From Ignavibacteria bacterium (lineage in GTDB: Bacteria; Bacteroidota; Ignavibacteria; Ignavibacteriales; SURF-24): a stretch of DNA of 64,000 nucleotides. Each line of letters starts with the position of its first letter. Within the stretch, counting starts at the first letter, position 1. The DNA lies in contig JAAXKN010000018.1 of the NCBI GenBank assembly GCA_025612375.1, positions 1 to 64,000 of the forward strand, in the 5' to 3' direction. Below, one piece after another: positions 30,901-47,412 of this stretch. A program made the position numbers and the translations under genes. A model generated the notes under the pieces. That model did not search any database, had not been told where the DNA came from, and was given only the letters and a program-made list of their open reading frames with translations.

Positions 30901-32885
30901 TCATAAGCCATTTCCCAGGACTGATATGCATTAATGAGACTTGCGTGCTGAATCATAGTCCCCTTGGGCCTGCCGGTAGAGCCGGAGGTATAGATGACGT
31001 AAGCCAGATTGTTTTTATCTGATGGACAGACCGGGTTCATTATGCTTTCACGTGATATCTCATCCCACTCAGTGTCGATCAGGATAACGCTTCCATCATA
31101 CTCAGGCAGGATATTTCGTAAGTTACTTTGCGTAACAAGCGTCTTTACACCCGCATCCTCGAGCATAAAGCTCAGGCGGTCTACCGGGTATGAGGCATCC
31201 AGGGGGAGGTATGCCGCGCCTGACTTCAAGACCCCCAGGACACCAGTCATCATATCCAGTGAGCGCTCAAGCAGGATTCCAACTATGTCTTCAGGACCGA
31301 CGCCCTGTCTTATGAGCCTGTGGGCAAACTGGTTTGACCTTTCATTCAGCTCTCTGTAGGACAATGAACTCCCCTCAAAAGTAAGTGCAGTCTCATCAGG
31401 ACATAGTTCAGCCTGCTTTTCAAAGAGGCTTTGTATTACCTCATACTCTTCAAATTCCACTTCTGAATGATTCCACTCATAGAGCAGCATATTCCGTTCA
31501 CTTTCATCCATCATACTGAGGCTACTGATGCTTTCTTCGGGCTTAAGGAGTATGTGGTTTATCAGGTTTTCATAGTGCCTCAGCATACGGCTTATTGTAC
31601 TTTCATCAAAAAGGTCCGTATTGTATTCTATCGTGGCATCCAGCCCCTCATATGTCTCGGCCACAGTAAGCGTGATGTCAAATGTAGAGGTCCCCATATC
31701 AACGTCCAGCATCCTGAAGTCCAGGCCATGAAAGGGCTGTGAGTTCAAGGGGAGGTTCTGGAGTATGAACATGACCTGGAACATAGGCTGGTAGCTCATG
31801 TCACGCCCGGGCTGGAGCTTTTCGACCAGGAACTCAAATGGGAGGTCCTGGTTTTCATAGCCTTCCAGCGTCACTGTCCTTACTTTCTTAAGGTAGTCAC
31901 GGAAGGACACAGCTTCATCTATTTCTGTTCTGATTACAATTGTGTTGATAAAAAGGCCTATTATCCCCTCAAGCTCCCTCCTTGTACGGTTTGCAATCGG
32001 TGTACCTACACTGATGTCGTGCTGAGAGGAGTACTTATAAAGCAGTATCTGGAAAGAGGCCATGAGCGTCATGAAAAGAGTGACCTTCTCTTTCCGGCAC
32101 AGTTCCATTAAGCCATCCAGTGCAGACTGTGGAATTGTTCTGGACAAAGTTGCTCCGTTATTGGTCCAGACCGAAGGCCTCGGCCTGTCTGTTGGAAGCC
32201 TCAGGACCTGAGATGACCCCTCAAGCTTACGTTTCCAGTAGGAGAGCTCTTTTTCGAGCCTTTCTCCCTGCATGAACTCCTTCTGCCACATGGAGAAGTC
32301 GGCGTACTGAATGGTGAGCTCCGGCATGGGGGACGGGATCCCCAGGGAGAAAGCGTTGTAAAGCGTGGATATTTCCTGCACGAACAGGCCCATTGACCAG
32401 CCGTCCGAGATAATGTGGTGCATGACTACTATGACCACGTGATCCACAGGGCCTAATTCAAGAACCGTGACCTTAAGAAGCGGGTCTTTTAAGAGGTCGA
32501 AGGAGCACCTGGCTTTCTCCTTTAATATACGCTTAATTTCCAGTTCCTTTTCCTCTTCAGGCATCTTCTTAAGGTCCAGGACCAGGAAAGGGACATCCAC
32601 ACTTTTTGAGATCACCTGGACGGGCTTTCCCTCCAGGGATAGGAAGTTTGTCCTTAAGGCCTCGTGGCGTCTTACGATTTCACCCAGCACCTTCTTAAAT
32701 ACTGGTATGTCGAACTTCCCTTTTATCCTCATTGCCGAAGGTATGTTGTAGTACGGGCTTCCAGGCTCAAACTGATCCAGGAACCACAGCCTCTGCTGCG
32801 CGTAGGAAGCAGGGAAAACATAAACCTCCTCACTATTTCCAGGAGATTCTTCAGTATGCATATTGGTATCGGTATCATCAGTCAT
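24999..32885 (-). CDS. NRPS-6: C-A-T-C-A-T-E, modules M10 and M11
   Basis: 2628 residues. M10: C with HHIISDG (about 158), A with A3 GSTGRPKG (about 637), A4 FDVFAGD and A5 NSFGLTEATID; the pocket D-V-G-E-L-A-S-I-D-K is close to ornithine codes. T has GGHS (about 1033). M11: C with HHIITDE (about 1231, Glu in place of Gly), A with FDAAVTS and NEYGPTEAAVG; pocket D-A-T-K-V-G-E-V-G-K is close to Asn. T has GGDSI (about 2105). E domain has HHLLIDAVSW (about 2291) and ESHGR, then GWFTSIYPV. The first 1.8 kb is identical to NRPS-4, and 678 bp of the second C domain is identical to NRPS-2. The N-terminus (MTDDTDTNMHTEESPGNSEE) is acidic and unlike those of NRPS-2 and NRPS-4. Confidence 0.95.
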   Translation of the reverse strand: MTDDTDTNMHTEESPGNSEEVYVFPASYAQQRLWFLDQFEPGSPYYNIPSAMRIKGKFDIPVFKKVLGEIVRRHEALRTNFLSLEGKPVQVISKSVDVPFLVLDLKKMPEEEKELEIKRILKEKARCSFDLLKDPLLKVTVLELGPVDHVVIVVMHHIISDGWSMGLFVQEISTLYNAFSLGIPSPMPELTIQYADFSMWQKEFMQGERLEKELSYWKRKLEGSSQVLRLPTDRPRPSVWTNNGATLSRTIPQSALDGLMELCRKEKVTLFMTLMASFQILLYKYSSQHDISVGTPIANRTRRELEGIIGLFINTIVIRTEIDEAVSFRDYLKKVRTVTLEGYENQDLPFEFLVEKLQPGRDMSYQPMFQVMFILQNLPLNSQPFHGLDFRMLDVDMGTSTFDITLTVAETYEGLDATIEYNTDLFDESTISRMLRHYENLINHILLKPEESISSLSMMDESERNMLLYEWNHSEVEFEEYEVIQSLFEKQAELCPDETALTFEGSSLSYRELNERSNQFAHRLIRQGVGPEDIVGILLERSLDMMTGVLGVLKSGAAYLPLDASYPVDRLSFMLEDAGVKTLVTQSNLRNILPEYDGSVILIDTEWDEISRESIMNPVCPSDKNNLAYVIYTSGSTGRPKGTMIQHASLINAYQSWEMAYELTTRARSHLQMASFSFDVFAGDWTRALCSGGKLVIAPREILLEGEKLYNLMRQEGVNIAEFVPAVLRNLIQYLDTSGNNLNFFHLLIAGSDVWYAGEYRKFLKYCGENTRLINSFGLTEATIDSSYFESTNLDIPNDRLVPIGRPFSNMTLYVLDRNLEPLAPGLTGELYVGGKGLARGYLKRPDVTAEKFIPDPFSKIPGQRLYKTGDMARFLPDGNVEFLGRMDNQIKLRGLRVELGEIETAVSEFDSVRDSVVIAREDTPGDKKIVAYIVTRDGNPIPAPELKHFLADRLPEYMIPSAFVTLEKLPVTPNGKVDRRALPAPDVNEIMKEMESNYVAPRSVAEGVIASIWSGVLKVPKIGINDNFFELGGHSLLATQVISRIRTAFNIEIPLRSIFENPTVARMGQIVEKEEMKKNGLISRPVLPAPREALIPLSFAQERLWFLDQLEPGNSFYNMPETYRIKGKLDKYILEESLNEVVRRHEILRTSFLTVDGKPSAVISPELKIMIGFTDLSIYPSEEQDKIIENISLREAQRYIPLTEAPLFRTTLLKVSEEDYIIKVILHHIITDEWSSGIMLREIALMYNALLLNTKPSLPELNIQYTDYAFWQREYLRGENLERQLSYWKDKLSGIPLSLELPFDHPRPPIQTYRGDYISLDLNPELVKALRDFNRQSGVTLFMTMLSCFQVLLYRLSGQMDIVIGTPVANRSKEELEALIGFFVNTLVLRCRISRNMKFLDLLKETTESSLEAFTYQELPFEMLVDALQPERTLSHSPLFQVMFAMQNMPLTDYELAPGIRIIPHEIKLNTSEFDLTLFIAEKSDESISMAFEYNTDLFEKETIEMFFRHYKSIIECVLINNDLAISDIPLLSREEEIAVTEKLAEGHSANVSLSQLVHEAFETTASLKMNSPALIFMGRAMTYGELNSRSNKLAHYLMKKGAGPETAVGIALKKSPELIISLLAVLKSGGCYIPLDMNYPLERLDYIVQDSKLKLLITEKELASKFSGDVVETILIDTLWDEIEKESALNPALNRPLEDNLAYIIYTSGSTGRPKGTMITHRNLMNYLSWCISTYPLNEETGSVFHLSISFDAAVTSIYPALLSGSPVKIIPDGTDIYRLGQELFESGTVGTLKLTPAHMDVLQEQLKNAEANNDGNASLRLKAFVVGGENLTRKQISYYQDKYPETLIYNEYGPTEAAVGCIVYEASGLKTEGSVPIGRVIPGVYVCLLDENMNIAPVNTPAELYIGGLGLSRGYLERPDLTAEKFIPDPFSSAPGMRLYKTGDKVKLLRNGSIEFLGRLDEQLKLHGYRIEPGEIEAALMQHSAVKEALVLKHTTEEKLVAYCIPRNEHIPETKEIREYLEKKVPSYMVPSVFMFIEQFPLTVNGKIDRKKLPEPRLERAEITEGYIAPVTEAELLMAGIWQSVLNVDKVGITDNFFELGGDSIISIQLVSRANQAGFRLTPRDIFQNPTVKSLALAANGGRVIKAPQGIVSGQIPLSPVQHWFFEQSLYNIHHYNQSLLFEVEHTLDITLLETVLKEILIHHDALRICFNKNEETWEQFNRGIDKIAPLIRVDLSAQPEEELPRQIEKLSSEFQASLDISSEPLKMAYFDTGKNRKNYLFIAVHHLLIDAVSWRILLDDFQTAYTEASQLKKIRLPLKTSSFMDWSKRLNEYAQTPEVAAEFDFWQKLKNSEASAIPADYKSNDGNLEQTAGTLRNSLEAEDTGTLLKELPKVLNAEIMHPLLTALVRAFNSKTGKTGLLIELESHGRVDLFPDLDVSRTIGWFTSIYPVYLELGNSESLKESVEKVKEQMNAIPNNGIGFGMLKYLSKDKSLISEMQRLPKPEIAFNYLGQFDDRTSAESSILPAQPTKGEERSPHNKRSYLIEITAAVVNGRLNLEWTYNSKIYKENTMLLLANAYLEEIRAIVNLVRSQKIDLRAKDYSDLGWNTQEVDDILSVINRMKE
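28356..29033. repeat. Repeat C1 copy a (M11 condensation domain)
   Basis: 678 bases with no difference found against 57380-58057, same orientation, offset 29,024. It codes for about 226 residues of the C-terminal half of the C domain and stops at the C-A linker (EMFFR). Near-identity continues about 60 bases beyond the right edge. Confidence 0.9.
31009..32807. repeat. Repeat CA copy a (M10 C domain plus A-domain N-terminus)
   Basis: About 1.8 kb with no difference found against 45446-47244, same orientation, offset 14,437. Three mismatches appear in the 55 bases left of 31009, after which the copies diverge. It covers the whole C domain and the A domain up to motif A3. Confidence 0.9.
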
Positions 32886-32963
32886 TCGGCCATCTCCTAT
32901 TTCTTATTTTGCCAGGCTACATTCATTATCAAAAACTTATAAAATTCTGACTTATGTGTTCCA

Positions 32964-35900
32964 CTATTTAATTAAGTCTGACTTCACGGCGCGGTAAGAA
33001 TCCCTGGAGACGCGTTTAATCGTTTCATCTTTCCTTTCGTCATTTCCTTTTTCCAGCAGTTCAATTTCCAGGGCTAAATCCGCAAATACAGGTTTTTCAA
33101 ACACCAGTCTTAAAGGAATTTCAATTCCCACAGCCTCTCTAATACGGCTTACAAGCTGGGATGCCAATAATGAGTGGCCGCCAAGCTCAAAGAAGTTATC
33201 ATAGATCCCGGCTTTTTCGAGGTTTAAGAGTCCGGAGGCAATATCCGTAACTGCTTTTTCAGTGCGGGTTCTTGGTGCAGTATATTCCACTTTTTTAGCC
33301 GCATGCCCCGGATCCATTGCGGCAAGGCCATTCCTGTCAATTTTACCGCTGGTGTTAAGTGGCATTTTCTCAAGCCTTATGATGAACTTTGGCAGCATGT
33401 ACTCGGGGAGCTTGGTCTTAAGGTATGCCTGAAGGCCCGAAGTGTCAAAGTCCTCTTCTTCAGCTACAATGTATGCAACAAGGCGGCTGCCGCCAATGTT
33501 GTCTTCCCTTAAGACTACCACGGCTTCTTTTACACCGGCATAGCTCCTTATCTGCGACTCAATTTCCTGGAGCTCTATTCTAAATCCCCTGAGCTTTATC
33601 TGGCTGTCCATCCTTCCTAAGAATTCAATCTTCCCGTCTTTTAAGTATCTTACCATGTCTCCTGTTCTATAAAGGCGGCTTCCCTTTTCACCCGAGAAAG
33701 GATCGGGCAGGAACTTCTCTGCCGTAAGTTCCGGCTTTCCGAGGTATCCCCTTGCCAGCCCTACTCCTGCAATGAAGAGTTCTCCAGGGGCACCAACAGG
33801 TACCGGGTGCATTGACCTATCCAGTATGTATGTCCTGAGGTTTGATATTGCCCTTCCGATCGGAGGCGTCTGTGAGAGATCCATGTCCTCTAAGGAGCAC
33901 TCATGGAGTGTAGTGCAGACCGTTGCCTCCGTGGGACCGTATGCGTTGAAGTACTTCCTCCCCTTTGACCACTTTTCGATCAGGCTCCAGGCTGCGGCCT
34001 CACCTGCCGTTACAAGTACGTCCAGCTCCGATAAGATGTCATAAGGAATAAATGACAGTACGGAAGGAGGCAGAGTAAGCACATTTATGCCGTTATTTTT
34101 CAGATAGTCCCTTAGTTTTTCACCTGAAAGCGTGGTATCCCTACGGCACAGATACAAAGTGGAACCGCTTAAAAGCGCCATGAATATTTCCCAGACAGAG
34201 GCATCAAAGCTGAGTGAGGAGAACTGCATTACCCTTTCGCCCGGAGAAAGACTGAAGGATTCCTTCTGTACATAAGACAAATTAACAACACCCTTATGGC
34301 TGAGCATGGTACCTTTGGGTTTGCCGGTAGAGCCTGAAGTGTAGATCACGTATGCAAGGTTTTCAGGATGTATTTTTACTTCAGTATGGTTCCCCCCTGA
34401 TGAATATAATTCCTCTTCAGAATCCATCAGGATTACCTTCTTTGACGTCACAGGTATTTTATCCAATAGGTGTTTCTGTGTAAGTATCAGCTTTACATCG
34501 GAATCTTCTATCATGTAGCTTATTCGGTCCACAGGGTACGAGGGGTCTATGGGAAGGAAGGCTCCTCCTGACCTAAGTACAGCCATTATGCTTACTATCA
34601 TATCAACTGACCTTTCGGATACAATTGCCACTATGTCCTCACGGCCGATCTGGTTACGCATAAGAAGCGAAGCCAGTCTTTCTGAGCGGATATTTAAGCC
34701 TGAATAACTTAGTTCCTCCAGGATTGTGCCGTCAGAGGCTGCCATAACAACTGAATTACAGGCAGGGTTTTCATTTACTACCTCATTAAACCTTTCGACA
34801 ACAGACACAGGAGGGTACTGCATGGCTGTACTGTTCCAGCCGCGGAGGATTTTATCCTCTTCAGCGGGCAGGAGTATGTTCAAATCTTCAATTGTTACGT
34901 CAGGATCCAGAAGGACAGATTTAATAATATTTTTATAATGCCTGAGCATCAATTCAATTGTTTCGGGCTTAAAAAGGTCGGAATTATATTCCAATGCCAT
35001 CATTAAACCTTCTTCCGACTCATTTAATACCATTGACAGGTCAAAATTGGAAGTAGTGCTTCTAATGGGGTAAGAAGAAATCTGCAGGTCCTCAAGGTCA
35101 AATCCGTTTGTCCGGAAGTTCTGGAAAACGAACATCACCTGAAACAAAGGAGACCGGCTCAGATCCCTCAGAGGGGCAACGGCCTCGACAACCTTTTCAA
35201 AAGGCACGTCCTGATTTGCGTAAGCCTCCAAAGAAGTTGTCCTTACTTTCTTCAGGAGTTCTTTAAATGTGAGCCCCCGTTCTAATTCAGTCAGCAGTAC
35301 GACGTTGTTTACAAAGAAGCCAATGAGGTTTTCAATTTCAGTTCTGACCCTGCCTGCAACCGGGGCCCCGATGGAAATATTATACTGTCCCGAATACTTG
35401 TGCAGAAGTATATTAAATGCGGCAAGGAGGCTCATAAAAAGAGTAGCGCCTTCTTTCCGGCTAAGCTCAAGGAGTTCTTTAAGGGTATCTGTGTCCAGAA
35501 TATCCGAGGCAGAATTTCCGTTAACTGAGAGGATAGGTTTCCTGGGAAAATCTGTATAGAGCCCGCTTACCTGCGGGATATTACTTAATTTATCTTTCCA
35601 GTAATTAAGCTGCTGAGAAAATTTTCCTGCCTCATACATACGGTTCTGCCAGATGGAGTAATCTGTGTACTGCAGGTTCAGTTCAGGAAGCGCAAGGTTT
35701 TTATTTTTAATGAGGGCTTCATAAGCCGAGGCCACTTCATTAACTAATATTGACATAGACCATCCGTCTGCAATTATGTGGTGTATGACAAAAAGGATAA
35801 TGCATTCATCCTTTGACAGGAGGAGGATATGGATCCTAAAAAGGGGGCCTTCCTGCAGGTTAAATGGTCTGGACGTTTCCGTGTCCATGATCCGGTCAAC

Positions 35901-38900
35901 TTCCTTTAGCCGGTTTTCACCCGCAGTGTCCTTTAAGTCGGTGATTTTTATATCCGCCCTAAAGTCATGGTTAATAACCTGGACCGGCTGCCCGTCAATT
36001 TCCCTGAACAGAGTTTTAAGCACCTGATGGCGTCCCGCAACGGTGTTAACAGCCTCCGTAAGGAGGCTAAGATTTATTTCCCCGATAATTTTTACAGCAG
36101 CAGGGATATTGTAGGAGGTCATACCGGGCTGGAGTTTATCCAGGAACCAAAGTCTCTGCTGAGGGAAAGACAAAGGAATTTTCTCCGCCACGTCATATTT
36201 AACCGGTTTATCCGGGACTTCCATGTCAGACCTGACAATACGGTCAATTCTTTCAGCCAAGGCAGAAAGTGTTTTTTCTTCAAAGAGGATGTTAAAAGGA
36301 ATTTCAATACTAAAAGCGTCACGGATTCTGGAGATAAGCTGAGTTGCAAGGAGTGAATGCCCGCCAAGTTCAAAGAAGTTATCTCCAGCAGCCACTTTGT
36401 CAAGCTTAAGAATATCCGCCCAGATGTTGGCAAGAATTTCCTCAGTAACTGTTTTCTGTTTTTCGTGTCCGGAATTATCCTGTTTTACTTCAGGCTCAGG
36501 AAGGCCGCTTCTGTCAATTTTCCCGCTGGTGTTAAGTGGCATTTTCTCAAGCCTTATGATGAACTTTGGCAGCATGTACTCGGGGAGCTTGGTCTTAAGG
36601 TATGCCTGAAGGCCCGAAGTGTCAAAGTCCTCTTCTTCAGCTACAATGTATGCAACAAGGCGGCTGCCGCCAATGTTGTCTTCCCTTAAGACTACCACGG
36701 CTTCTTTTACACCGGCATAGCTCCTTATCTGCGACTCAATTTCCTGGAGCTCTATTCTAAATCCCCTGAGCTTTATCTGGCTGTCCATCCTTCCTAAGAA
36801 TTCAATCTTCCCGTCTTTTAAGTATCTTACCATGTCTCCTGTTCTATAAAGGCGGCTTCCCTTTTCACCCGAGAAAGGATCGGGCAGGAACTTCTCTGCC
36901 GTAAGTTCCGGCTTTCCGAGGTATCCCCTTGCCAGCCCTACTCCTGCAATGAAGAGTTCTCCAGGGGCACCAACAGGTACCGGGTGCATTGACCTATCCA
37001 GTATGTATGTCCTGAGGTTTGATATTGCCCTTCCGATCGGAGGCGTCTGTGAGAGATCCATGTCCTCTAAGGAGCACTCATGGAGTGTAGTGCAGACCGT
37101 TGCCTCCGTGGGACCGTATGCGTTGAAGTACTTCCTCCCCTTTGACCACTTTTCGATCAGGCTCCAGGTTGCGGCCTCGCCGCCCGTAACAAGCACCTCC
37201 AGATCAGGCAGATCCTTATCAGGCAGTACAGATAAATATGAAGGAGGCAGAAGGAGAAAATTAATTTTTTGTTCCGACATTAGATTCATCAATCTCCCGC
37301 CTGAGAGGATGTCTTCTTTATCGCACAGGCAGAGTGTACTGCCGGTAAGAAGCGACATAAAAATCTCACAAATTGAGGCATCAAAGCTGAAGGATGAGAA
37401 CTGCAATACCCTTTTGCCCGATGAGAGCCGGAGTATTTCTTTTTTAACGCGGGCAAGGTTAATCACCCCTTTGTGGCTGAGCATGGTACCTTTGGGTTTG
37501 CCGGTAGAGCCTGAAGTGTAGATCACGTATGCAAGGTTTTCAGGATGTATTTTTACTTCAGTATGGTTCCCCCCTGATGAATATAATTCCTCTTCAGAAT
37601 CCATCAGGATTACCTTCTTTGACGTCACAGGTATTTTATCCAATAGGTGTTTCTGTGTAAGTATCAGCTTTACATCGGAATCTTCTATCATGTAGCTTAT
37701 TCGGTCCACAGGGTACGAGGGGTCTATGGGAAGGAAGGCTCCTCCTGACCTAAGTACAGCCATTATGCTTACTATCATATCAACTGACCTTTCGGACACA
37801 ATTGCAACTATGTCCTCCAGGACAAGGCCGTTACTAATAAGGTTATGGGCCAGCCGGTCTGCCTTTTCATCCAACTCCCTATAGCTTATCTTTGAGTCAT
37901 TTTTGCAGCATGCAGTCATATTCCCATAAATGGCGGCAACGGACTTAAAGCATTCAGGGATAGAGATGTCCTCAAGCGCCAAGGCATCGGCACCATGGCT
38001 GAACTCTCTTAAAATTCTGTTACTTTCTTCATCTGACAGAATACTTATTTCGTTAAGTTTCTTTTCAGCGTTCAGCGAGACACTGGAAAGCAGGGCCTTA
38101 AAGTGAGAAAACAGGGCTTCAATTTCCTCACTGTCAAAAAAGGATTCATCATAAGCCATTTCAATTGAAATTTCCTCTCCGACCCCGAGAGCTATAGTCA
38201 GAGGATAATTGGTCCTGGTATGGGACCTTACTTCATCGATTGAAATTTTCTCTTTCAGGCGGCTTAAGGCCGCAGAAGCAGGATAGTTTTCAAAGACAAT
38301 AATGCTGTCGAAAAGCGGGACCTCACGGGGTATCCGGCTCCAGCCCTGTATATCTGTTAAGGCGCAGTACTCATATTTTCTCTGCTCGGCCTGCTGGAAC
38401 TGAATATTTCTAAGCCAGGCGGCAAGAGTAATTTCCGGTTCAATTTTAATCCTGACGGGCAGAGTATTTATAAACAGCCCCACTGTGGAATCTATATTCA
38501 GCAAGTCTGTGGGTCTTCCCGAGACAGTAGAGCCGAAGACTATGTCGTCATGACCGGTGTAAGATGCGAGGATCAAGGCCCAGAAACCCTGGAAAAGAGT
38601 ATTTATTGTCAGCCTGTTTTTCCTGCAGAATGCATTAACCAGTGAGGAAATTTCACTGTTTATTTCCACATTCCTCCTCATGTATCCCCCTTCCCTTTTA
38701 CGGAAGGCGCGGGGTCTAAAAGAAGTATTATTGCTCAAGTCTTCAAGAGTAATTCTCCAGAACGCTTCGGCTTTTTTAATATCCTGCCTCTGCAGCCAGG
38801 AAATATAGTCCCGGAACGGGCGGACTACATTAAGCCGGGCGGTACTGTTATTTATCAGCGCATTATAGACTTCAAAGACCTCCTTAATAATTATCTGTGC

Positions 38901-39344
38901 GCTCCAGCCGTCGAAAAGGATGTGGTGCTGAGTCCATATGAAGTAGTGAAGATCAGTATCTGCTTTAATGATAACCAGTTTCATCAGAGGAGCGTTTTCC
39001 AGGGCGAAACCTTCTTCTACTTCCAGTCTCAGCAATTCTTCAAGTTTTTCTTCTTTTCCGGCCTCATTCTGCCAGTCTAGAATCTTAAAAGGGAGTTCAA
39101 CATCTTTATAGACTATCTGGAGGGGCTCATCCACATCTTCCCACATAAAAGCGCTTCTGAGGACCTGATGACGTTCGGCAACTTTTTCCCAGGCGCACTT
39201 AAAGGAGTAAATATCCATAGGACCATGAAAAGTACAGCTCGTCTGCTCTATATAAACGCCGGTTTCAGAAGACAACAGGCTGTGGAAGAGCATACCCCTC
39301 TGCATCGGGGAAAGAGGATAAATGTCTTCAATATTAGTATTCAT
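32964..39344 (-). CDS. NRPS-5: C-A-T-C-A-T, modules M8 and M9
   Basis: 2126 residues. M8: DCL-type C opening IYPLSPMQRGMLFHSLL with HHILFDG (about 140); A with A3 GSTGKPKG (about 616), A4 FDASICE, A5 NAYGPTEATVC; pocket D-A-C-L-V-G-A-V-C-K, not assigned. T has GGHS (about 995). M9: C with HHIIADG (about 1190); A with FDASVWE and the same A5; pocket D-A-W-T-V-A-A-V-C-K, a Phe-like code. T has GGHS (about 2055). The two A domains are identical over two blocks and differ almost only between A3 and A5. The ATG lies one base after the NRPS-4 stop (TAAAATG), with AAAGG upstream, so translation is coupled to the gene that ends in E. The C-terminal tail is basic (RVSRDSYRAVKSDLIK). Confidence 0.95.
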   Translation of the reverse strand: MNTNIEDIYPLSPMQRGMLFHSLLSSETGVYIEQTSCTFHGPMDIYSFKCAWEKVAERHQVLRSAFMWEDVDEPLQIVYKDVELPFKILDWQNEAGKEEKLEELLRLEVEEGFALENAPLMKLVIIKADTDLHYFIWTQHHILFDGWSAQIIIKEVFEVYNALINNSTARLNVVRPFRDYISWLQRQDIKKAEAFWRITLEDLSNNTSFRPRAFRKREGGYMRRNVEINSEISSLVNAFCRKNRLTINTLFQGFWALILASYTGHDDIVFGSTVSGRPTDLLNIDSTVGLFINTLPVRIKIEPEITLAAWLRNIQFQQAEQRKYEYCALTDIQGWSRIPREVPLFDSIIVFENYPASAALSRLKEKISIDEVRSHTRTNYPLTIALGVGEEISIEMAYDESFFDSEEIEALFSHFKALLSSVSLNAEKKLNEISILSDEESNRILREFSHGADALALEDISIPECFKSVAAIYGNMTACCKNDSKISYRELDEKADRLAHNLISNGLVLEDIVAIVSERSVDMIVSIMAVLRSGGAFLPIDPSYPVDRISYMIEDSDVKLILTQKHLLDKIPVTSKKVILMDSEEELYSSGGNHTEVKIHPENLAYVIYTSGSTGKPKGTMLSHKGVINLARVKKEILRLSSGKRVLQFSSFSFDASICEIFMSLLTGSTLCLCDKEDILSGGRLMNLMSEQKINFLLLPPSYLSVLPDKDLPDLEVLVTGGEAATWSLIEKWSKGRKYFNAYGPTEATVCTTLHECSLEDMDLSQTPPIGRAISNLRTYILDRSMHPVPVGAPGELFIAGVGLARGYLGKPELTAEKFLPDPFSGEKGSRLYRTGDMVRYLKDGKIEFLGRMDSQIKLRGFRIELQEIESQIRSYAGVKEAVVVLREDNIGGSRLVAYIVAEEEDFDTSGLQAYLKTKLPEYMLPKFIIRLEKMPLNTSGKIDRSGLPEPEVKQDNSGHEKQKTVTEEILANIWADILKLDKVAAGDNFFELGGHSLLATQLISRIRDAFSIEIPFNILFEEKTLSALAERIDRIVRSDMEVPDKPVKYDVAEKIPLSFPQQRLWFLDKLQPGMTSYNIPAAVKIIGEINLSLLTEAVNTVAGRHQVLKTLFREIDGQPVQVINHDFRADIKITDLKDTAGENRLKEVDRIMDTETSRPFNLQEGPLFRIHILLLSKDECIILFVIHHIIADGWSMSILVNEVASAYEALIKNKNLALPELNLQYTDYSIWQNRMYEAGKFSQQLNYWKDKLSNIPQVSGLYTDFPRKPILSVNGNSASDILDTDTLKELLELSRKEGATLFMSLLAAFNILLHKYSGQYNISIGAPVAGRVRTEIENLIGFFVNNVVLLTELERGLTFKELLKKVRTTSLEAYANQDVPFEKVVEAVAPLRDLSRSPLFQVMFVFQNFRTNGFDLEDLQISSYPIRSTTSNFDLSMVLNESEEGLMMALEYNSDLFKPETIELMLRHYKNIIKSVLLDPDVTIEDLNILLPAEEDKILRGWNSTAMQYPPVSVVERFNEVVNENPACNSVVMAASDGTILEELSYSGLNIRSERLASLLMRNQIGREDIVAIVSERSVDMIVSIMAVLRSGGAFLPIDPSYPVDRISYMIEDSDVKLILTQKHLLDKIPVTSKKVILMDSEEELYSSGGNHTEVKIHPENLAYVIYTSGSTGKPKGTMLSHKGVVNLSYVQKESFSLSPGERVMQFSSLSFDASVWEIFMALLSGSTLYLCRRDTTLSGEKLRDYLKNNGINVLTLPPSVLSFIPYDILSELDVLVTAGEAAAWSLIEKWSKGRKYFNAYGPTEATVCTTLHECSLEDMDLSQTPPIGRAISNLRTYILDRSMHPVPVGAPGELFIAGVGLARGYLGKPELTAEKFLPDPFSGEKGSRLYRTGDMVRYLKDGKIEFLGRMDSQIKLRGFRIELQEIESQIRSYAGVKEAVVVLREDNIGGSRLVAYIVAEEEDFDTSGLQAYLKTKLPEYMLPKFIIRLEKMPLNTSGKIDRNGLAAMDPGHAAKKVEYTAPRTRTEKAVTDIASGLLNLEKAGIYDNFFELGGHSLLASQLVSRIREAVGIEIPLRLVFEKPVFADLALEIELLEKGNDERKDETIKRVSRDSYRAVKSDLIK
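33346..33991. repeat. Repeat A-Cterm copy a (M9 A domain)
   Basis: 646 bases identical to 36523-37168, offset 3,177. One mismatch at 33345/36522, then 11 more identical bases to the left. It covers A5 to just before A10. Confidence 0.92.
34297..34619. repeat. Repeat A-Nterm copy a (M9 A domain)
   Basis: 323 bases identical to 37474-37796, offset 3,177. It covers A2 to A3 and ends just past GSTGKPKGTMLSH. Two mismatches and then divergence follow beyond 34619. Confidence 0.92.
36523..37168. repeat. Repeat A-Cterm copy b (M8 A domain)
   Basis: Identical partner of 33346-33991. Confidence 0.92.
37474..37796. repeat. Repeat A-Nterm copy b (M8 A domain)
   Basis: Identical partner of 34297-34619. 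Confidence 0.92.
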
Positions 39345-39345
39345 T

Positions 39346-42300
39346 TTATGCCTTTGATGTTCTATTATTTATCCGGTTAAGCACCTTGTCAAATTTCTCA
39401 CGGTTTAAGTGAGCCAGAGGGAAATCGGAGCCTGACAGTTCCACCTGGCCATGTTCAGAATGTTCAACAATAAGCCTCAGTTCGTCCATGAACAGGTCCG
39501 AGAATCTTTTAATTTTACTCAGGCTGAAAACTTTGGAGCAGTATCTCATCTGCATATAGAAGCTGCCCCCGGAAACAAAGCATACTATGTCTATCAGGTA
39601 TCTTGAGTAGTTTAATAAACCTCTTTCAGGCCCCCTGTTATAGACTGAGGGGGCAAAAAGGATGTTTTCTTCCTGAGGCAGTTCATTAAGCTGTCCCAGA
39701 TAGTTAAATGAAATTTCGCTTTGCGGCAGTGAGTTAAATTTTCTTTTTACTTCATCGTCCAAAGACAAATATTTTAATATTCCGTAACCTATACCATGAC
39801 GCGGGACACTCCGGAGCTGTTCTTTTATCTCCTTTAAGGATTCCAGGGGATAGACTGAGGACTTCAGGTCCAGCAGAACAGGATATAAACAGGTAAACCA
39901 GCCGAGAGTTCTGGAGAGGTCAATACTTTCATCAAAGGTTTCTCTTCCGTGCCCTTCGAGGTCAATCATGAGAATTCTCTTTTCAGACCAAAGAGAATAC
40001 GCCCTTGTAAGTGCCGTAAGGAGCACTTCGACTACATTGCAGTTAAGCCTCTTCAGAGCCTCATGAATTAAGGATTGTGTTACCCCGCCGCTTGAATTAA
40101 CCTCGCTGTAATCCTTTTCGGCGTATTTCACTTCAGGAGGCACGCCTTTAAGAGGAGTAATCTTGTTATAAGGCTGTTTAAGCCAGAATATGATCTCCTG
40201 CCTCAGCTCTTCAGAAGAGGCATGGCGTATTAAATACTCACTCCATTTTCTGTATGAGGCCGATTTAGGGGGCAGCAAAACGGGCTTCTGCTTTTTTATC
40301 TGGCTGTAGGCGCTTAATATGTCTTCGAGCAGTATACGCCACGAGACCACGTCAATAACCAGGTGGTGTGCCGCAATTAATAAATTATCCTTCTTACCCT
40401 CCCCCAGTTTGAAGTACGCAAATCTTATTACTGGGCCTTTTTCAATATCAAGGCTGCTTTGAATTTCTGAGGCATGAGCTTCAATTTTGTCTTTCAGTCT
40501 TTCTTCAGGAAGAGACGACAAGTCAAAAACCCTCAGCGGGAGCTCTTTAATGTCCGGCATAACCTGCATTATCCAGCGGCCATCTTCCTGAATAAAAACC
40601 GAGCGCAGGACATCGTGGTGCTTAAGGATGGCTCTAACTACCTCTTCAAGCATATTAAGTTCAACCCTGTCGTTTATTTCGAAGAAGACCGACTGGTTCC
40701 AGTGGTCTTTTTGGACAAGGTTCTGCTCAAAAAATGAGCTCTGCACGGGAAGAAGGTTTATTTTTCCTCCTCTAAATTCCTCTTCAGCATTATCTTCACC
40801 TGACTCTTCGTTTATGAGAAGAGCCATCTGAGCTATTGTCTGGTGTTTGAAAAGGTGTGAAGGCTGAATTTTTAACCCCCTTTCCCTTGCCTTAGCCACC
40901 ACCTGGATGGCCAGGATGGAGTCGCCGCCAATTTCAAAGAAGTTGTCGTTAAGGCCTACTTCTTCAAGACCCAGGACATTCTTCCAGACTTCAGAGAGAA
41001 TTCTTTCACTTTCAGTCTCAGGGCTCTTATTCTCATCCTGGAGCTTATCTGCCGCGGGCTCGGGCAGAGATCTGCGGTCAATTTTACCGCTTGGGGCGAG
41101 GGGCATCCTGTCCAGTTTGACAATTGAAGGAGGCACCATATAGTCCGGGAGCTGATGTCTTAAGAATTCCTTTACCTCAGCCGGTGTAAATTCAGGGAGG
41201 CTGCCCTCCGGGCTCGGCTTAAGTGTAATGTATGCCGCAAGGGAGGCCTGCCCTTTTTTCCCTTCCCTTAGAATGACAACTGCATCCTTAACTTTTTCAT
41301 GCTGAAGGAGCACCTGTTCAATTTCGCCAAGCTCAATTCTAAAGCCTCTGAGTTTAATCTGGCTGTCGATTCTTCCCAGGAATTCAATTGTTCCGTTTTC
41401 ATTATACCGTGCCAGGTCGCCTGTCCTGTATAGCCTTCCGCCCACTCTTCTTCCGTAGGCATCAGGAATGAACTTCTCTGCCGTAAGCTCCGGGCGCTTC
41501 AGGTATCCGCGGCCCACGGAAAGACCCCCTATACATAGTTCCCCTTGGGCTCCAACAGGAGCAAGGTTAAGGCTTGCGTCAAGGATGTAGAGTTCAACAT
41601 TCAAAATAGGCCTGCCTATGGTCGGCCTCTCAGGAAAGTCCTTTACTACTGCAGCTGAAGCCGCAACCGTGGTCTCAGTAGGGCCGTATTCATTAAAGAA
41701 ATCGCACCTGTCAACTTTAAGCATCTCTTTCCAGGCAGCCTCATCCAGGGCTTCCCCGCCTGCAAGCACAAGTGAAGGCCTCCAGGTGTCTTTATTAAAA
41801 AGTCCAGTAGATAGAAACACTTTCAGCAAGGTCGGGACGCAGTCTAGTATGTCTATTTTATTTTCCACTATGTATTCCGAAAGCGCCAGTGCGTCGCGCC
41901 TAAGGTCTTCCGGCGTAAGATAAATTGTATTGCCATAGAGCATAAATGTAAGCTGGCGAATGGAAGCGTCAAACATGATGGTTGAGTTAAGGGTTACCCT
42001 TGCCGGGCCCGGGCTGAAATACGAGGTATACATTGCACCTGTTGAGGCGTACAAATTGTAAAAATTTTCATGCTGGACGATGGAGCCCTTGGGTTTACCC
42101 GTGGAGCCTGAGGTATAGATCACGTAGGCGATATTTTCAGGGCATGCTTCAGTTATTGGATCGTCGCCTGATTCATTTGAAATTTCAGGCCACGCGCTGT
42201 CCATCAATATAACTTCAAAACCTTTTCCAATAAGTTCATCCTTAAGCCCCTCTTCTGAAATGAGGAGTCTGACGCCCGCATCCTTCAGTATATAGTCTAT

Positions 42301-45300
42301 TCTCCCCTTTGGATAAACGGGGTCCAGCGGCAGGTACGCCGCACCGGACTTCAGAATGCCTAGTATAGCGGTAAAAAGGTCTGTACTCCTGCCTGTAAGC
42401 ACTCCAACTATTTCGTCTTCTCCGGCTCCTTTTTTCCTCAGGTAGTAAGAAAGCATATTAGCCCTTCGGTTCAGTTCGCCAAAAGTAATGCTTCCATTTT
42501 GCGCTACAACGGCTGTTCTTTCAGGATTTATTAATGCCTGCTCCTCAAAGATTCTATTGATCAGCCTGACCGGAGAGACTGTTTCGGCCTCTTTATCCCT
42601 CCTGTTCCACTTCCAGAGGACCTCTCCTTTTGACTTCCGGCTTAGGAGCAAGGGAAGATGATTATTGTTTTTACCGGAGGAGGCACTTTTATCATGGGCG
42701 CCATTTATTAAATTACGTAGAGTTTCTTCTTCTTCCTTAGCACTAAGCAGCGGTATCTCTTTAATTTTTACCTCGGGGTTTAATGCCACGCATTCAAGGA
42801 TCCTGCCGTATTGGCGGAGCATCATTTCCATGGTTTCTTTGTCAAAGAGGTCCGTGCTGTATTCGAATGCCAGCCTCAGGCCGTCTTTAGTCTCAACAGC
42901 TGAAAGAGTAATGTCGTACTTTGAAGTATTTACCGGGATATCGATCTGGCGCACATCTATGCCGCTATTGGAGGAGCTGTTATCCGTCTGAAGGTTCTCC
43001 GAGAAAAACATAACCTGGAAAAGCGGAGAGAAGCTCATGGAGCGTTCCAGATGAAGAGCGTCTATTATCATTTCAAATGGCAAGTCCTGGTAAGTATAAG
43101 CTTCAAGAGCACATTCCTTTGTCTGCCTCAGGAGGTCAGAGAATTTCATCTTGTCTGAGATATTTACCCTGAGGACCAGTATATTGACAAAGAATCCGAT
43201 CAGGTCCTCAATGTCAGCCCTGTTTCTGTTGGCAATTGGTGTTCCGACCAGGATATCAGACTCTCCGGAGTACCTGTAGAGCAGGACCTGAAAAACAGAC
43301 AGCAAGGACATGAACAAAGTAACGCCGTAGTTTCTGTTTATTTTATTTACCTCAAGGCCGAGTTTTCCGGGTAATTCGAGGCTGATAAAACCGCCTTTAT
43401 AGCTTTGGACGGCAGGCCGGGGCCTGTCGGTTGGGAGTTCAAGGATCTGAGGGCTGTCCTTTAGTTTTGCTGTCCAATATTCTATATGCCTGCTCAGGTT
43501 TTCTCCCGAAAAATATTTTCTTTGCCAGGCGGCATAGTCGGCATATTGAACCGGGAGCTTAAGGACTGCCGGGTGTTCCCCATTTTCAAGTTGGTGGTAA
43601 TAATTCAGCAATTCACTGAACATTTTCCGGGAGGACCATCCGTCGGTTATGATATGGTGGAATATGAGGATCAGTACAGATTCATCCTCAGACAATCTTA
43701 TTAAGAGCGCCCGGAATAAGGGCAGAGTATCCAGCACGAACGGTTTTTGAGCTTCTTTGCTGATATAATCCTTTATTAAAACCTCCTGTTCTTCCCTGCT
43801 TAATCCACCGGCTTCAATTACACGCACAGCAACATTATATTCCGGAATAATTTTCTGATAAGGTTTACCTTCGCGGGACAGGAAAACCGTCCTTAGGATT
43901 TCATGGCGACTGGTGATAATGTTCAGGCTTTCCTCAAGCATTTCAACATTCATTTTCCCATATATTCTCAGGGCTTCCGGAACGTTATAAGCTATATTTC
44001 CAGGCTCAAGCTGATCTAAAAACCAGAGCCTTTCCTGGGCAAAGGACAGAGGAATAACCGTGCCGCGCGAAACAGGCAGTATTGCACTTCCTGCAAGGCC
44101 GTTTTTTTCCATTTCCGCAGCTTCAACTATATGGCTTAAGCGGGCCACAGTCGGATTTTCAAAAATGCTGCGCAAAGGAATTTCCATGTTAAATTCTTTT
44201 TTAATTCTGGAGATCACCTGTGTAGCCAGGAGCGAGTGGCCCCCGAGCTCAAAAAAGTTATCGTTTATTCCGACCTTCGGCAGATTCAGTACGCCAGCCC
44301 ATATTGCAGATACTACCTCTTCAACCACAGTGCGCGGAGCAGCGTAATTAGATTCCATTTCCTTCATAATTTCATTTATGTCGGGAGCGGGCAAGGCTCG
44401 CCTGTCGACTTTTCCGTTCGGAGTTACCGGAAGCTTCTGAAGAATTACAAAAGCCGAAGGGATCATGTATTCAGGAAGGCGTTCACTAAGATAACGCATG
44501 AGCTGAGGCTTTTGAAAGGCATTGCCGTCGCGTATTACTATGTATGCCACGATTCTTTTTTCTCCCGGAATGTCCTCTCTTGCAACGACAACAGAGTCCT
44601 TTATGTCGTCAAATTCTAAAACGGCATTTTCAATTTCACCCAGTTCAATGCGCAGTCCCCTGAGTTTAATCTGGCTGTCGATTCTTCCCAGGAATTCAAT
44701 TGTTCCGTTTTCATTATACCGTGCCAGGTCGCCTGTCCTGTATAGCCTTCCGCCCACTCTTCTTCCGTAGGCATCAGGAATGAACTTCTCTGCCGTAAGC
44801 TCCGGGCGCTTCAGGTATCCGCGGCCCACGGAAAGACCCCCTATACATAGTTCACCGGGCACTCCAACGGGAGCGAGGTTAAGGCTGTTGTCAAGAATGT
44901 ACGCCTCCACATTAAGAGGAGGCTTTCCGATTACAGGTTTTTCAGGGGAGTCTTTTACACTGCAGATTGCGGCATCTACTGTAGTTTCTGTGGGTCCGTA
45001 GGTGTTGAAGAAATCGCAACCTTCAATTTTAAGCATTTCTTTCCACGCGGCCTCATCCAGGGCCTCCCCGCCTGCAAGAACAAGTGAAGGCTTCCAGGTG
45101 TTTTTATTAAAAAGCCCATTGGAAAGAAACATTTTCAGCAAAGTAGGGACGCAGTCAAGTATATCAATTTTATTTTCCACTATGTATTCCGAAAGCGCTA
45201 CCGGGTCGTGCCTTACATCATCTTTCGGGATGTAAAGCCTATTGCCGTAGAGCATGAGCATAATCTGCTGAATTGAGGCGTCGAACATTATTGTTGTGGT

Positions 45301-47349
45301 CATGATTACGCGTACGGGCCCTGAAGCAAAATAGCGGGAGTACATACTGCCTATTATTCTGTAGTAGTTAAAAAGGTTTCCGTGGGAGATCATAGTCCCT
45401 TTGGGTCTGCCGGTAGAGCCGGAGGTATAGATGACGTAAGCCAGGTTGTTTTTATCTGATGGACAGACCGGGTTCATTATGCTTTCACGTGATATCTCAT
45501 CCCACTCAGTGTCGATCAGGATAACGCTTCCATCATACTCAGGCAGGATATTTCGTAAGTTACTTTGCGTAACAAGCGTCTTTACACCCGCATCCTCGAG
45601 CATAAAGCTCAGGCGGTCTACCGGGTATGAGGCATCCAGGGGGAGGTATGCCGCGCCTGACTTCAAGACCCCCAGGACACCAGTCATCATATCCAGTGAG
45701 CGCTCAAGCAGGATTCCAACTATGTCTTCAGGACCGACGCCCTGTCTTATGAGCCTGTGGGCAAACTGGTTTGACCTTTCATTCAGCTCTCTGTAGGACA
45801 ATGAACTCCCCTCAAAAGTAAGTGCAGTCTCATCAGGACATAGTTCAGCCTGCTTTTCAAAGAGGCTTTGTATTACCTCATACTCTTCAAATTCCACTTC
45901 TGAATGATTCCACTCATAGAGCAGCATATTCCGTTCACTTTCATCCATCATACTGAGGCTACTGATGCTTTCTTCGGGCTTAAGGAGTATGTGGTTTATC
46001 AGGTTTTCATAGTGCCTCAGCATACGGCTTATTGTACTTTCATCAAAAAGGTCCGTATTGTATTCTATCGTGGCATCCAGCCCCTCATATGTCTCGGCCA
46101 CAGTAAGCGTGATGTCAAATGTAGAGGTCCCCATATCAACGTCCAGCATCCTGAAGTCCAGGCCATGAAAGGGCTGTGAGTTCAAGGGGAGGTTCTGGAG
46201 TATGAACATGACCTGGAACATAGGCTGGTAGCTCATGTCACGCCCGGGCTGGAGCTTTTCGACCAGGAACTCAAATGGGAGGTCCTGGTTTTCATAGCCT
46301 TCCAGCGTCACTGTCCTTACTTTCTTAAGGTAGTCACGGAAGGACACAGCTTCATCTATTTCTGTTCTGATTACAATTGTGTTGATAAAAAGGCCTATTA
46401 TCCCCTCAAGCTCCCTCCTTGTACGGTTTGCAATCGGTGTACCTACACTGATGTCGTGCTGAGAGGAGTACTTATAAAGCAGTATCTGGAAAGAGGCCAT
46501 GAGCGTCATGAAAAGAGTGACCTTCTCTTTCCGGCACAGTTCCATTAAGCCATCCAGTGCAGACTGTGGAATTGTTCTGGACAAAGTTGCTCCGTTATTG
46601 GTCCAGACCGAAGGCCTCGGCCTGTCTGTTGGAAGCCTCAGGACCTGAGATGACCCCTCAAGCTTACGTTTCCAGTAGGAGAGCTCTTTTTCGAGCCTTT
46701 CTCCCTGCATGAACTCCTTCTGCCACATGGAGAAGTCGGCGTACTGAATGGTGAGCTCCGGCATGGGGGACGGGATCCCCAGGGAGAAAGCGTTGTAAAG
46801 CGTGGATATTTCCTGCACGAACAGGCCCATTGACCAGCCGTCCGAGATAATGTGGTGCATGACTACTATGACCACGTGATCCACAGGGCCTAATTCAAGA
46901 ACCGTGACCTTAAGAAGCGGGTCTTTTAAGAGGTCGAAGGAGCACCTGGCTTTCTCCTTTAATATACGCTTAATTTCCAGTTCCTTTTCCTCTTCAGGCA
47001 TCTTCTTAAGGTCCAGGACCAGGAAAGGGACATCCACACTTTTTGAGATCACCTGGACGGGCTTTCCCTCCAGGGATAGGAAGTTTGTCCTTAAGGCCTC
47101 GTGGCGTCTTACGATTTCACCCAGCACCTTCTTAAATACTGGTATGTCGAACTTCCCTTTTATCCTCATTGCCGAAGGTATGTTGTAGTACGGGCTTCCA
47201 GGCTCAAACTGATCCAGGAACCACAGCCTCTGCTGCGCGTAGGACAGGGGGAATATGTTATACTTGCTGCCGTTTTCCCTAAGCTTTTTCTCAAACAATA
47301 CCCTCTTCTCAGGAGAAAGAGAATTTAAGATGTTCAAAATGTCTGACAT
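39346..47349 (-). CDS. NRPS-4: C-A-T-C-A-T-E, modules M6 and M7
   Basis: 2667 residues from the ATG at 47349, which has GGAGGAA upstream; a TTG at 47364 is unlikely. A helical N-terminus (SLSPEKRVLFEKKLREN) resembles that of NRPS-2. M6: C with HHIISDG (about 166); A with FDASIQQ and NTYGPTETTVD; pocket D-A-Q-D-L-G-T-V-D-K, very close to Gln codes. T has GGHS (about 1037). M7: C with HHIITDG (about 1236); A with FDASIRQ and NEYGPTETTVA; pocket D-A-R-D-L-G-E-V-A-K, Gln/Glu-like. T has GGDSI (about 2141). E domain has HHLVIDVVSW (about 2331, Val in place of Gly), EGHGRE and GWFTCLYPV. The E domain predicts a D-residue at M7, taken up by the DCL domain of NRPS-5. Confidence 0.95.
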   Translation of the reverse strand: MSDILNILNSLSPEKRVLFEKKLRENGSKYNIFPLSYAQQRLWFLDQFEPGSPYYNIPSAMRIKGKFDIPVFKKVLGEIVRRHEALRTNFLSLEGKPVQVISKSVDVPFLVLDLKKMPEEEKELEIKRILKEKARCSFDLLKDPLLKVTVLELGPVDHVVIVVMHHIISDGWSMGLFVQEISTLYNAFSLGIPSPMPELTIQYADFSMWQKEFMQGERLEKELSYWKRKLEGSSQVLRLPTDRPRPSVWTNNGATLSRTIPQSALDGLMELCRKEKVTLFMTLMASFQILLYKYSSQHDISVGTPIANRTRRELEGIIGLFINTIVIRTEIDEAVSFRDYLKKVRTVTLEGYENQDLPFEFLVEKLQPGRDMSYQPMFQVMFILQNLPLNSQPFHGLDFRMLDVDMGTSTFDITLTVAETYEGLDATIEYNTDLFDESTISRMLRHYENLINHILLKPEESISSLSMMDESERNMLLYEWNHSEVEFEEYEVIQSLFEKQAELCPDETALTFEGSSLSYRELNERSNQFAHRLIRQGVGPEDIVGILLERSLDMMTGVLGVLKSGAAYLPLDASYPVDRLSFMLEDAGVKTLVTQSNLRNILPEYDGSVILIDTEWDEISRESIMNPVCPSDKNNLAYVIYTSGSTGRPKGTMISHGNLFNYYRIIGSMYSRYFASGPVRVIMTTTIMFDASIQQIMLMLYGNRLYIPKDDVRHDPVALSEYIVENKIDILDCVPTLLKMFLSNGLFNKNTWKPSLVLAGGEALDEAAWKEMLKIEGCDFFNTYGPTETTVDAAICSVKDSPEKPVIGKPPLNVEAYILDNSLNLAPVGVPGELCIGGLSVGRGYLKRPELTAEKFIPDAYGRRVGGRLYRTGDLARYNENGTIEFLGRIDSQIKLRGLRIELGEIENAVLEFDDIKDSVVVAREDIPGEKRIVAYIVIRDGNAFQKPQLMRYLSERLPEYMIPSAFVILQKLPVTPNGKVDRRALPAPDINEIMKEMESNYAAPRTVVEEVVSAIWAGVLNLPKVGINDNFFELGGHSLLATQVISRIKKEFNMEIPLRSIFENPTVARLSHIVEAAEMEKNGLAGSAILPVSRGTVIPLSFAQERLWFLDQLEPGNIAYNVPEALRIYGKMNVEMLEESLNIITSRHEILRTVFLSREGKPYQKIIPEYNVAVRVIEAGGLSREEQEVLIKDYISKEAQKPFVLDTLPLFRALLIRLSEDESVLILIFHHIITDGWSSRKMFSELLNYYHQLENGEHPAVLKLPVQYADYAAWQRKYFSGENLSRHIEYWTAKLKDSPQILELPTDRPRPAVQSYKGGFISLELPGKLGLEVNKINRNYGVTLFMSLLSVFQVLLYRYSGESDILVGTPIANRNRADIEDLIGFFVNILVLRVNISDKMKFSDLLRQTKECALEAYTYQDLPFEMIIDALHLERSMSFSPLFQVMFFSENLQTDNSSSNSGIDVRQIDIPVNTSKYDITLSAVETKDGLRLAFEYSTDLFDKETMEMMLRQYGRILECVALNPEVKIKEIPLLSAKEEEETLRNLINGAHDKSASSGKNNNHLPLLLSRKSKGEVLWKWNRRDKEAETVSPVRLINRIFEEQALINPERTAVVAQNGSITFGELNRRANMLSYYLRKKGAGEDEIVGVLTGRSTDLFTAILGILKSGAAYLPLDPVYPKGRIDYILKDAGVRLLISEEGLKDELIGKGFEVILMDSAWPEISNESGDDPITEACPENIAYVIYTSGSTGKPKGSIVQHENFYNLYASTGAMYTSYFSPGPARVTLNSTIMFDASIRQLTFMLYGNTIYLTPEDLRRDALALSEYIVENKIDILDCVPTLLKVFLSTGLFNKDTWRPSLVLAGGEALDEAAWKEMLKVDRCDFFNEYGPTETTVAASAAVVKDFPERPTIGRPILNVELYILDASLNLAPVGAQGELCIGGLSVGRGYLKRPELTAEKFIPDAYGRRVGGRLYRTGDLARYNENGTIEFLGRIDSQIKLRGFRIELGEIEQVLLQHEKVKDAVVILREGKKGQASLAAYITLKPSPEGSLPEFTPAEVKEFLRHQLPDYMVPPSIVKLDRMPLAPSGKIDRRSLPEPAADKLQDENKSPETESERILSEVWKNVLGLEEVGLNDNFFEIGGDSILAIQVVAKARERGLKIQPSHLFKHQTIAQMALLINEESGEDNAEEEFRGGKINLLPVQSSFFEQNLVQKDHWNQSVFFEINDRVELNMLEEVVRAILKHHDVLRSVFIQEDGRWIMQVMPDIKELPLRVFDLSSLPEERLKDKIEAHASEIQSSLDIEKGPVIRFAYFKLGEGKKDNLLIAAHHLVIDVVSWRILLEDILSAYSQIKKQKPVLLPPKSASYRKWSEYLIRHASSEELRQEIIFWLKQPYNKITPLKGVPPEVKYAEKDYSEVNSSGGVTQSLIHEALKRLNCNVVEVLLTALTRAYSLWSEKRILMIDLEGHGRETFDESIDLSRTLGWFTCLYPVLLDLKSSVYPLESLKEIKEQLRSVPRHGIGYGILKYLSLDDEVKRKFNSLPQSEISFNYLGQLNELPQEENILFAPSVYNRGPERGLLNYSRYLIDIVCFVSGGSFYMQMRYCSKVFSLSKIKRFSDLFMDELRLIVEHSEHGQVELSGSDFPLAHLNREKFDKVLNRINNRTSKA
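41349..41541. repeat. Repeat A7-A8 copy a (M7)
   Basis: 193 bases identical to 44661-44853, offset 3,312. It codes the A7-A8 part of the A domain (YRTGDLARYNENGTIEFLGR region). Confidence 0.85.
44661..44853. repeat. Repeat A7-A8 copy b (M6)
   Basis: Identical partner of 41349-41541, in the preceding module of the same protein. Confidence 0.85.
45446..47244. repeat. Repeat CA copy b (M6 C domain plus A-domain N-terminus)
   Basis: Identical partner of 31009-32807. Its right edge (47244) lies just inside the C domain start, so the N-terminal linkers of the two genes differ. Confidence 0.9.
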
Positions 47350-47412
47350 ACAGCTTTCCTCCAATCGCGTTCATTTAAGCTCAAAGTGGTCCTTTTCCAG
47401 TTAAAATGAATT

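Follow-up and report, generated by a model that had tools for sequence, protein, structure and literature searches.

Module D1 of an NRPS cluster in an Ignavibacteria bacterium is probably a mosaic produced by gene conversion within the cluster

The analysed window, 64,000 nt of contig JAAXKN010000018.1 of an Ignavibacteria bacterium (assembly GCA_025612375.1), harbours a non-ribosomal peptide synthetase (NRPS) cluster. Every NRPS gene lies on the minus strand. The order of transcription is A (62105-67549, reaching beyond the window), B (53921-62014), C (47413-53934), D (39346-47364), E (32964-39344), F (24999-32885) and G (21033-24995, which also encodes a thioesterase). Gene D encodes the modules D1 and D2 and an extra C-family domain which is probably an epimerisation domain, and gene F encodes the modules F1 and F2 and a third C-family domain. 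When the amino-acid modules are counted from A2, D1 corresponds to M6 and F1 to M10. The first module of gene A has no FDxS core. It looks like a starter of the fatty-acyl-AMP ligase type, which would make an acylated 12-residue peptide the probable product, as judged from module order and motifs. A search of the PDB retrieved general NRPS relatives only.

Among the few near-identical direct repeats of the window, the longest is located at the 5’ ends of genes F and D. The regions 31009-32807 (-) in F1 and 45446-47244 (-) in D1 differ at 0 of 1799 nt, in agreement with the preliminary description, and the exact match does not extend further at either end. On the coding strand the block starts at the condensation motif C1 (SYAQQRLWFL) and comprises the condensation (C) domain and the N-terminal part of the adenylation (A) domain. 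Its exact identity stops 20 nt ahead of motif A3 (TSGSTGRPK), the first base of which is at 30989 in F1 and at 45426 in D1. An extra exact run of 38 nt is found at 30970-31007, and when three mismatches are allowed, the match reaches 30952 in F1 and 45389 in D1. These near-identical 3’ edges (30952-31008 (-) in F1 and 45389-45445 (-) in D1, with 3 of 57 nt mismatched) include A3 (30989-30963 and 45426-45400, respectively). Relatedness between D1 and F1 breaks just past A3, between GRPKG and TMISH, and thus the limit originally placed at the GSTGRPKG loop was confirmed as well. The full-length block is present in two copies in the whole assembly of 140 contigs, in which a third full copy was not found.

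As a reference we used G001, the only genome of the same genus in the comparison, with one assembly per species; the prefixes O_ and R_ denote modules of the studied genome and of G001, respectively. Gene G has matches in 12 of 164 genomes of the order, these two included, and four of the other ten (G060, G092, G093 and G003) were also compared. In a search of five genomes of the family, long DNA matches to the D1/F1 front were absent outside the studied genome and G001. The orthologous cluster of G001 is located on contigs C14 and C30 and shows approximately 70% protein identity. Genes C, E, F and G are 66-71% identical (aa) to their G001 orthologues over nearly the full length, and the C domains of orthologous modules differ at 28-31% of the nucleotides (69-72% identity). 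Gene D reaches only 55%, mainly through its non-matching module D1: O_D1 and R_D1 are at most about half identical in all segments. Gene D encodes 2672 aa as compared to 2663 aa in G001, with two modules in both. The first 60 aa of genes D and F are 72% and 79% identical to R_D and R_F, respectively, and D2 and F2 are still in place beside D1 and F1, as in G001. Since the flanks of both copies are still orthologous to those of the sister genome, the sequences were replaced in place, as is typical for gene conversion. Simple insertion and tandem or segmental duplication were rejected in view of the equal gene lengths and the orthologous flanks; an extra copy was not seen.

Along its length, D1 is composed of parts with different affinities. 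From C1 to A3 it is of the F1 type, being 100% identical to O_F1 and, depending on the segment, 58-73% (aa) to R_F1; compared to the F1 module of G060, this front is 48-49% identical (aa) over the C domain and 38% over the N-terminal part of the A domain. From A3 to A8 (44667-45388 (-), approximate ends) the nearest module is D2 (74% aa), and from A8 through the carrier domain D1 is again of the F1 type (76-80% aa). This tail (43980-44666 (-), approximate lower limit) comprises A8, the C-terminal subdomain of the A domain, the carrier domain and a linker, and it ends at motif C1 of D2, where orthology of gene D resumes. A two-parent scan placed the breaks at alignment columns 732 (GRPKG/TMISH) and 1045 (QIK/LRG). 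F1-like informative sites amount to 45 of 318 inside A3-A8 and to 1066 of 1103 outside, a distribution matched by none of 100 shuffles. D1 thus contains a discrete A3-A8 segment (columns 732-1045) of other ancestry between native flanks. The earlier proposal that one of the two modules received a new A core joined at A3 holds for the foreign origin of the core, and the module in question is M6. The proposed common front part is shared, but it belongs to a larger F1-type block, which spans D1 from C1 to the next C1 minus the A3-A8 core. The core belongs to the D2/B2 group, and D2 appears to be its nearest candidate donor. The assignment depends partly on an exact tract of 194 nt around A7-A8 (44660-44853 (-) in D1, 41348-41541 (-) in D2), which seems to be a converted patch; in the pocket segment the D1 core is 67% identical (aa) to D2 and 64% to R_B2.

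The aligned core codes of the two modules differ. F1 (M10) has DVGEIGSID, which we take to be an Orn-type code, and D1 (M6) has DAQDLGTVD, which is presumably Gln-like. The codes thus differ in line with the specificities suggested by the first inspection, and the substrate meanings, like the code positions, are putative readings by general rules.

Phylogenetic trees comprised 60-61 modules, with the starters O_A1 and R_A1, modules shorter than 900 aa and contig C213 of G003 excluded. The front tree has 60 taxa, the missing module likely being R_B2, which has no front due to a contig break. In this tree O_D1 and O_F1 group with R_F1 (support 1.0) in a clade consisting of F1 modules only (support 1.0), to which each of the outgroup genomes G060, G092, G093 and G003 contributes one member. 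In the core tree O_D1 groups with O_D2 (support 0.997). In the tail tree O_F1, O_D1 and R_F1 form a clade with a support of 0.998, and the pairing of O_F1 with O_D1 alone has a support of 0.714. Since each of five relatives has a single module of the F1 type and D1 is nested inside the F1 clade, F1 (M10) is, judging from the trees, the old module and D1 (M6) the rebuilt newcomer. The front of R_D1 is unplaced (support 0.0), and the pattern could, though less probably, reflect loss in the sister as opposed to gain here.

The synonymous differences suggest an order of events. D1 and F1 differ at 0 of 396 synonymous sites in the front, as opposed to a pS of 0.49 in the C-terminal part of the A domain and of 0.43 in the carrier domain. 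For O_F1 and R_F1, the pS values in the front, the C-terminal part of the A domain and the carrier domain are 0.72, 0.64 and 0.64, respectively. Chance or purifying selection as the cause of the D1/F1 identity was rejected, because the orthologues differ with a pS of 0.72. For the D1 and D2 cores the pS is 0.505 (lowered by the exact 194-nt patch) versus 0.71 for the D2 orthologues. The upper 95% bound of the synonymous divergence of the front is 0.75% if the assembly is taken at face value. We read this as a rebuilding of D1 after the species split; later, in recent time, only the front was homogenised again. The data thus support the idea that a shared front was regained recently, and the absence even of silent changes, on which this idea was based, was indeed observed, with its exactness limited by the draft assembly.

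Most probably, gene conversion within the cluster rebuilt D1 from F1 and a D2-type core and then homogenised the front again. Homologous recombination within the cluster would overwrite blocks of one module with those of another, nothing being inserted or lost. In a first step, after the split from G001, a copy of F1 would have overwritten D1 from C1 to the next C1, with A3-A8 originating from a D2-type core, nearest to D2. The outcome would be a Gln-like module on an F1 chassis. In a second step, the F1-type fronts of D1 and F1 would have been homogenised anew in recent time. Similar conversion probably acted on E1/E2 and F2/B2 in both genomes, and additionally on D1/D2 here and on B2/D2 in G001. 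Past both motifs D1 and F1 are unalike, with unrelated N-terminal segments on one side and different cores on the other, and the tract presumably ends at C1 and A3 because of this dissimilarity. Thus, similarity does end at A3, where the breakpoint had been suspected, but a hotspot need not be invoked. Baunach et al. (PMC8097286) argue similarly for breaks near A motifs.

The quality of the assembly has to be considered here. Since the last 55 nt of contig C18 and the first 55 nt of C68 are the same, exactly 55 nt being shared, the assembly looks like a short-read de Bruijn draft with k=55; contigs of G001 show similar shared ends of 55 nt. De Bruijn graphs can smooth out sparse differences between the copies of a repeat, and short-read drafts can understate differences within such repeats. 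Isolated SNPs with at least 54 matching nt on both flanks were not found in the near-identical tracts of either genome. Such SNP-free interiors are expected from bubble collapse too, and thus the exactness of the match is an upper claim: a complete lack of differences may go slightly too far, whereas near-identity and junctions are not in doubt. A full artefact would mean that a collapsed 1.8-kb sequence was placed twice, the true D1 front being different or the copies differing at scattered sites. This would be in line with the 55-nt overlap of C18 and C68, with the breaks of G001 contigs at the F2/B2 repeat and with tracts that all lack isolated SNPs, and is nevertheless very improbable, since the junctions (47244/47245 and the A3 end) would have to occur in reads to enter the graph. 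Moreover, direct repeats allow one linear solution, the order of the flanks is that of the sister genome, and collapse could hide scattered SNPs only, never a diverged D1 front.

The very different ages of front and tail could also be explained by a single recent event, in which the F1 front was pasted onto an existing Gln-like D1, the F1-like tail being due to an older, unrelated exchange. We regard this as possible but rather doubtful, because the front as well as the tail is placed with F1 and F1 similarity stops at the next C1, and the copying of a module with later re-conversion accounts for both ends. As to the direction of the last conversion, either copy could have served as template once an F1-type front was present in D1, and identical copies cannot tell. 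It is unlikely, though, that the D1 front was copied over the F1 front: the C domains of O_F1 and R_F1 (71-73% aa, dN 0.19) are as similar as other orthologous C domains, and F1 shows no excess of amino-acid change. That both fronts were acquired horizontally from some other organism found no support in our analysis and is extremely improbable, given the presence of the F1 type once per genome in the five relatives and the low identity of the best named matches to the front (41% in Aquimarina longa and 34% in Chryseobacterium pennipullorum).

Further tracts, between E1 and E2, F2 and B2, and D1 and D2, were found in the studied genome. As in the D1/F1 front, paralogues are closer than orthologues within the bounded E1/E2 and F2/B2 tracts. 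In E1/E2, tract 1 extends from the pocket end to A10 (33334-34001 (-) in E2, 36511-37178 (-) in E1) and begins after the first pocket residues, and tract 2 extends from A2 to A3 (34297-34640 (-) in E2, 37474-37817 (-) in E1). They are separated by a gap of 295 nt, a spared pocket segment (34002-34296 (-) in E2, 37179-37473 (-) in E1) with 56% aa identity between the modules. The gap contains the A4 region and what we take to be positions 235-301, and the codes, with positions assigned by general rules, would be DACLVGAVC in E1 and DAWTVAAVC in E2. In G001, by contrast, one exact tract of 1382 nt covers the whole stretch, pocket included, and both modules read DAWTVAAVC by the same presumed rules. 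The outer limits of E1/E2 are at alignment columns 585-1142 here and 576-1143 in G001. The condensation-domain tract of F2/B2 (28356-29120 (-) in F2, 57380-58144 (-) in B2) has 765 nt with 98.3% identity, the modules being 29 kb apart. It seems to correspond to an exact 754-nt repeat in G001, deduced from the 55-nt contig ends where that assembly broke, and its limits are at columns 171-444 here and 177-447 in G001. The latter genome also has a B2/D2 tract of 556 nt (99.6%). E1/E2 tract 1 and the F2/B2 tract have two copies each in the genome. Two of the three converted pairs in the sister are among the four found here, with 66 pairs possible (P = 0.008, calculated as if all pairs were equally likely, which they are not, and with pairs picked post hoc). 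Tracts of at least 100 nt were not found in G093, G092 and the partial cluster of G060, and therefore the pattern is not general in the order. In G003, which belongs to the same family, two exact shared contig ends of 141 nt exist in NRPS genes (end of L077 and start of L078; starts of L080 and L081), and they may mark collapsed repeats of a similar sort.

Published work already describes A cores that recombine, domains that evolve in concert and a module pair that is overwritten repeatedly (PMC8097286, PMC4256081, PMC2174460, PMC9205934, PMC3640908), and the D1/F1 case is, by its sequence pattern, an unusually readable instance of this known intra-cluster gene conversion (concerted evolution). 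In Baunach et al. 2021 (PMC8097286), the core is likewise swapped between A motifs: one parent supplies the C-A linker, Asub and the carrier domain, the breaks lie close to conserved A motifs, and the donors are intragenomic. Here, in contrast, the chassis itself would stem from another module of the cluster by copying, and its front would have been homogenised again. Medema et al. 2014 (PMC4256081) also describe NRPS/PKS domains of the same cluster that are closer than orthologues, and internal recombination, while our data concern single tracts with limits at the base level, two of them nearly the same in two species. The microcystin synthetase pair mcyB1/mcyC, repeatedly overwritten and homogenised across lineages (Fewer et al. 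2007, PMC2174460), is close to E1/E2. There, however, adenylation domains alone move, whereas the D1/F1 tract includes a whole condensation domain. An Orn-specific module of the wollamide cluster (Booth et al. 2022, PMC9205934) similarly has a new core, with breakpoints from A2 to A5/A6, but its donor was another NRPS locus, and that exchange was tested biochemically. Conservation of tract limits across species, or a pocket spared between converted flanks, was not found in the literature accessible to us, which included PMC2533009, subscription papers being mostly outside this scope.

We tentatively propose that some NRPS module pairs may be conserved conversion units, the outer limits of which survive the splitting of species although each species rewrites what lies between them, and that selection could decide whether a pocket is overwritten, as in E1 of the sister, or spared, as in E1 here. 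The pair E1/E2 in the sister clusters offers a natural experiment, in which similar conversion apparently erased a code in one species and left it in the other. If the proposal is true, the same long direct repeats would enable the assembly line to lose modules while staying in frame; if D1 and F1 recombined at their fronts, for example, 14,437 bp would be removed, leading to an 8- instead of a 12-residue product. Under the gene-conversion reading, D1 itself is a clean and roughly dated natural module rebuild, with chassis, foreign core, joins at C1, A3 and A8, and re-homogenisation. How chassis and core are joined in nature is also the design question of NRPS engineering. Finally, the adenylation domain of G1 (21033-24995) is 50-56% identical (aa) to its orthologue and the C and carrier domains of this module 63-76%, which probably reflects another replacement of an adenylation domain in one lineage.
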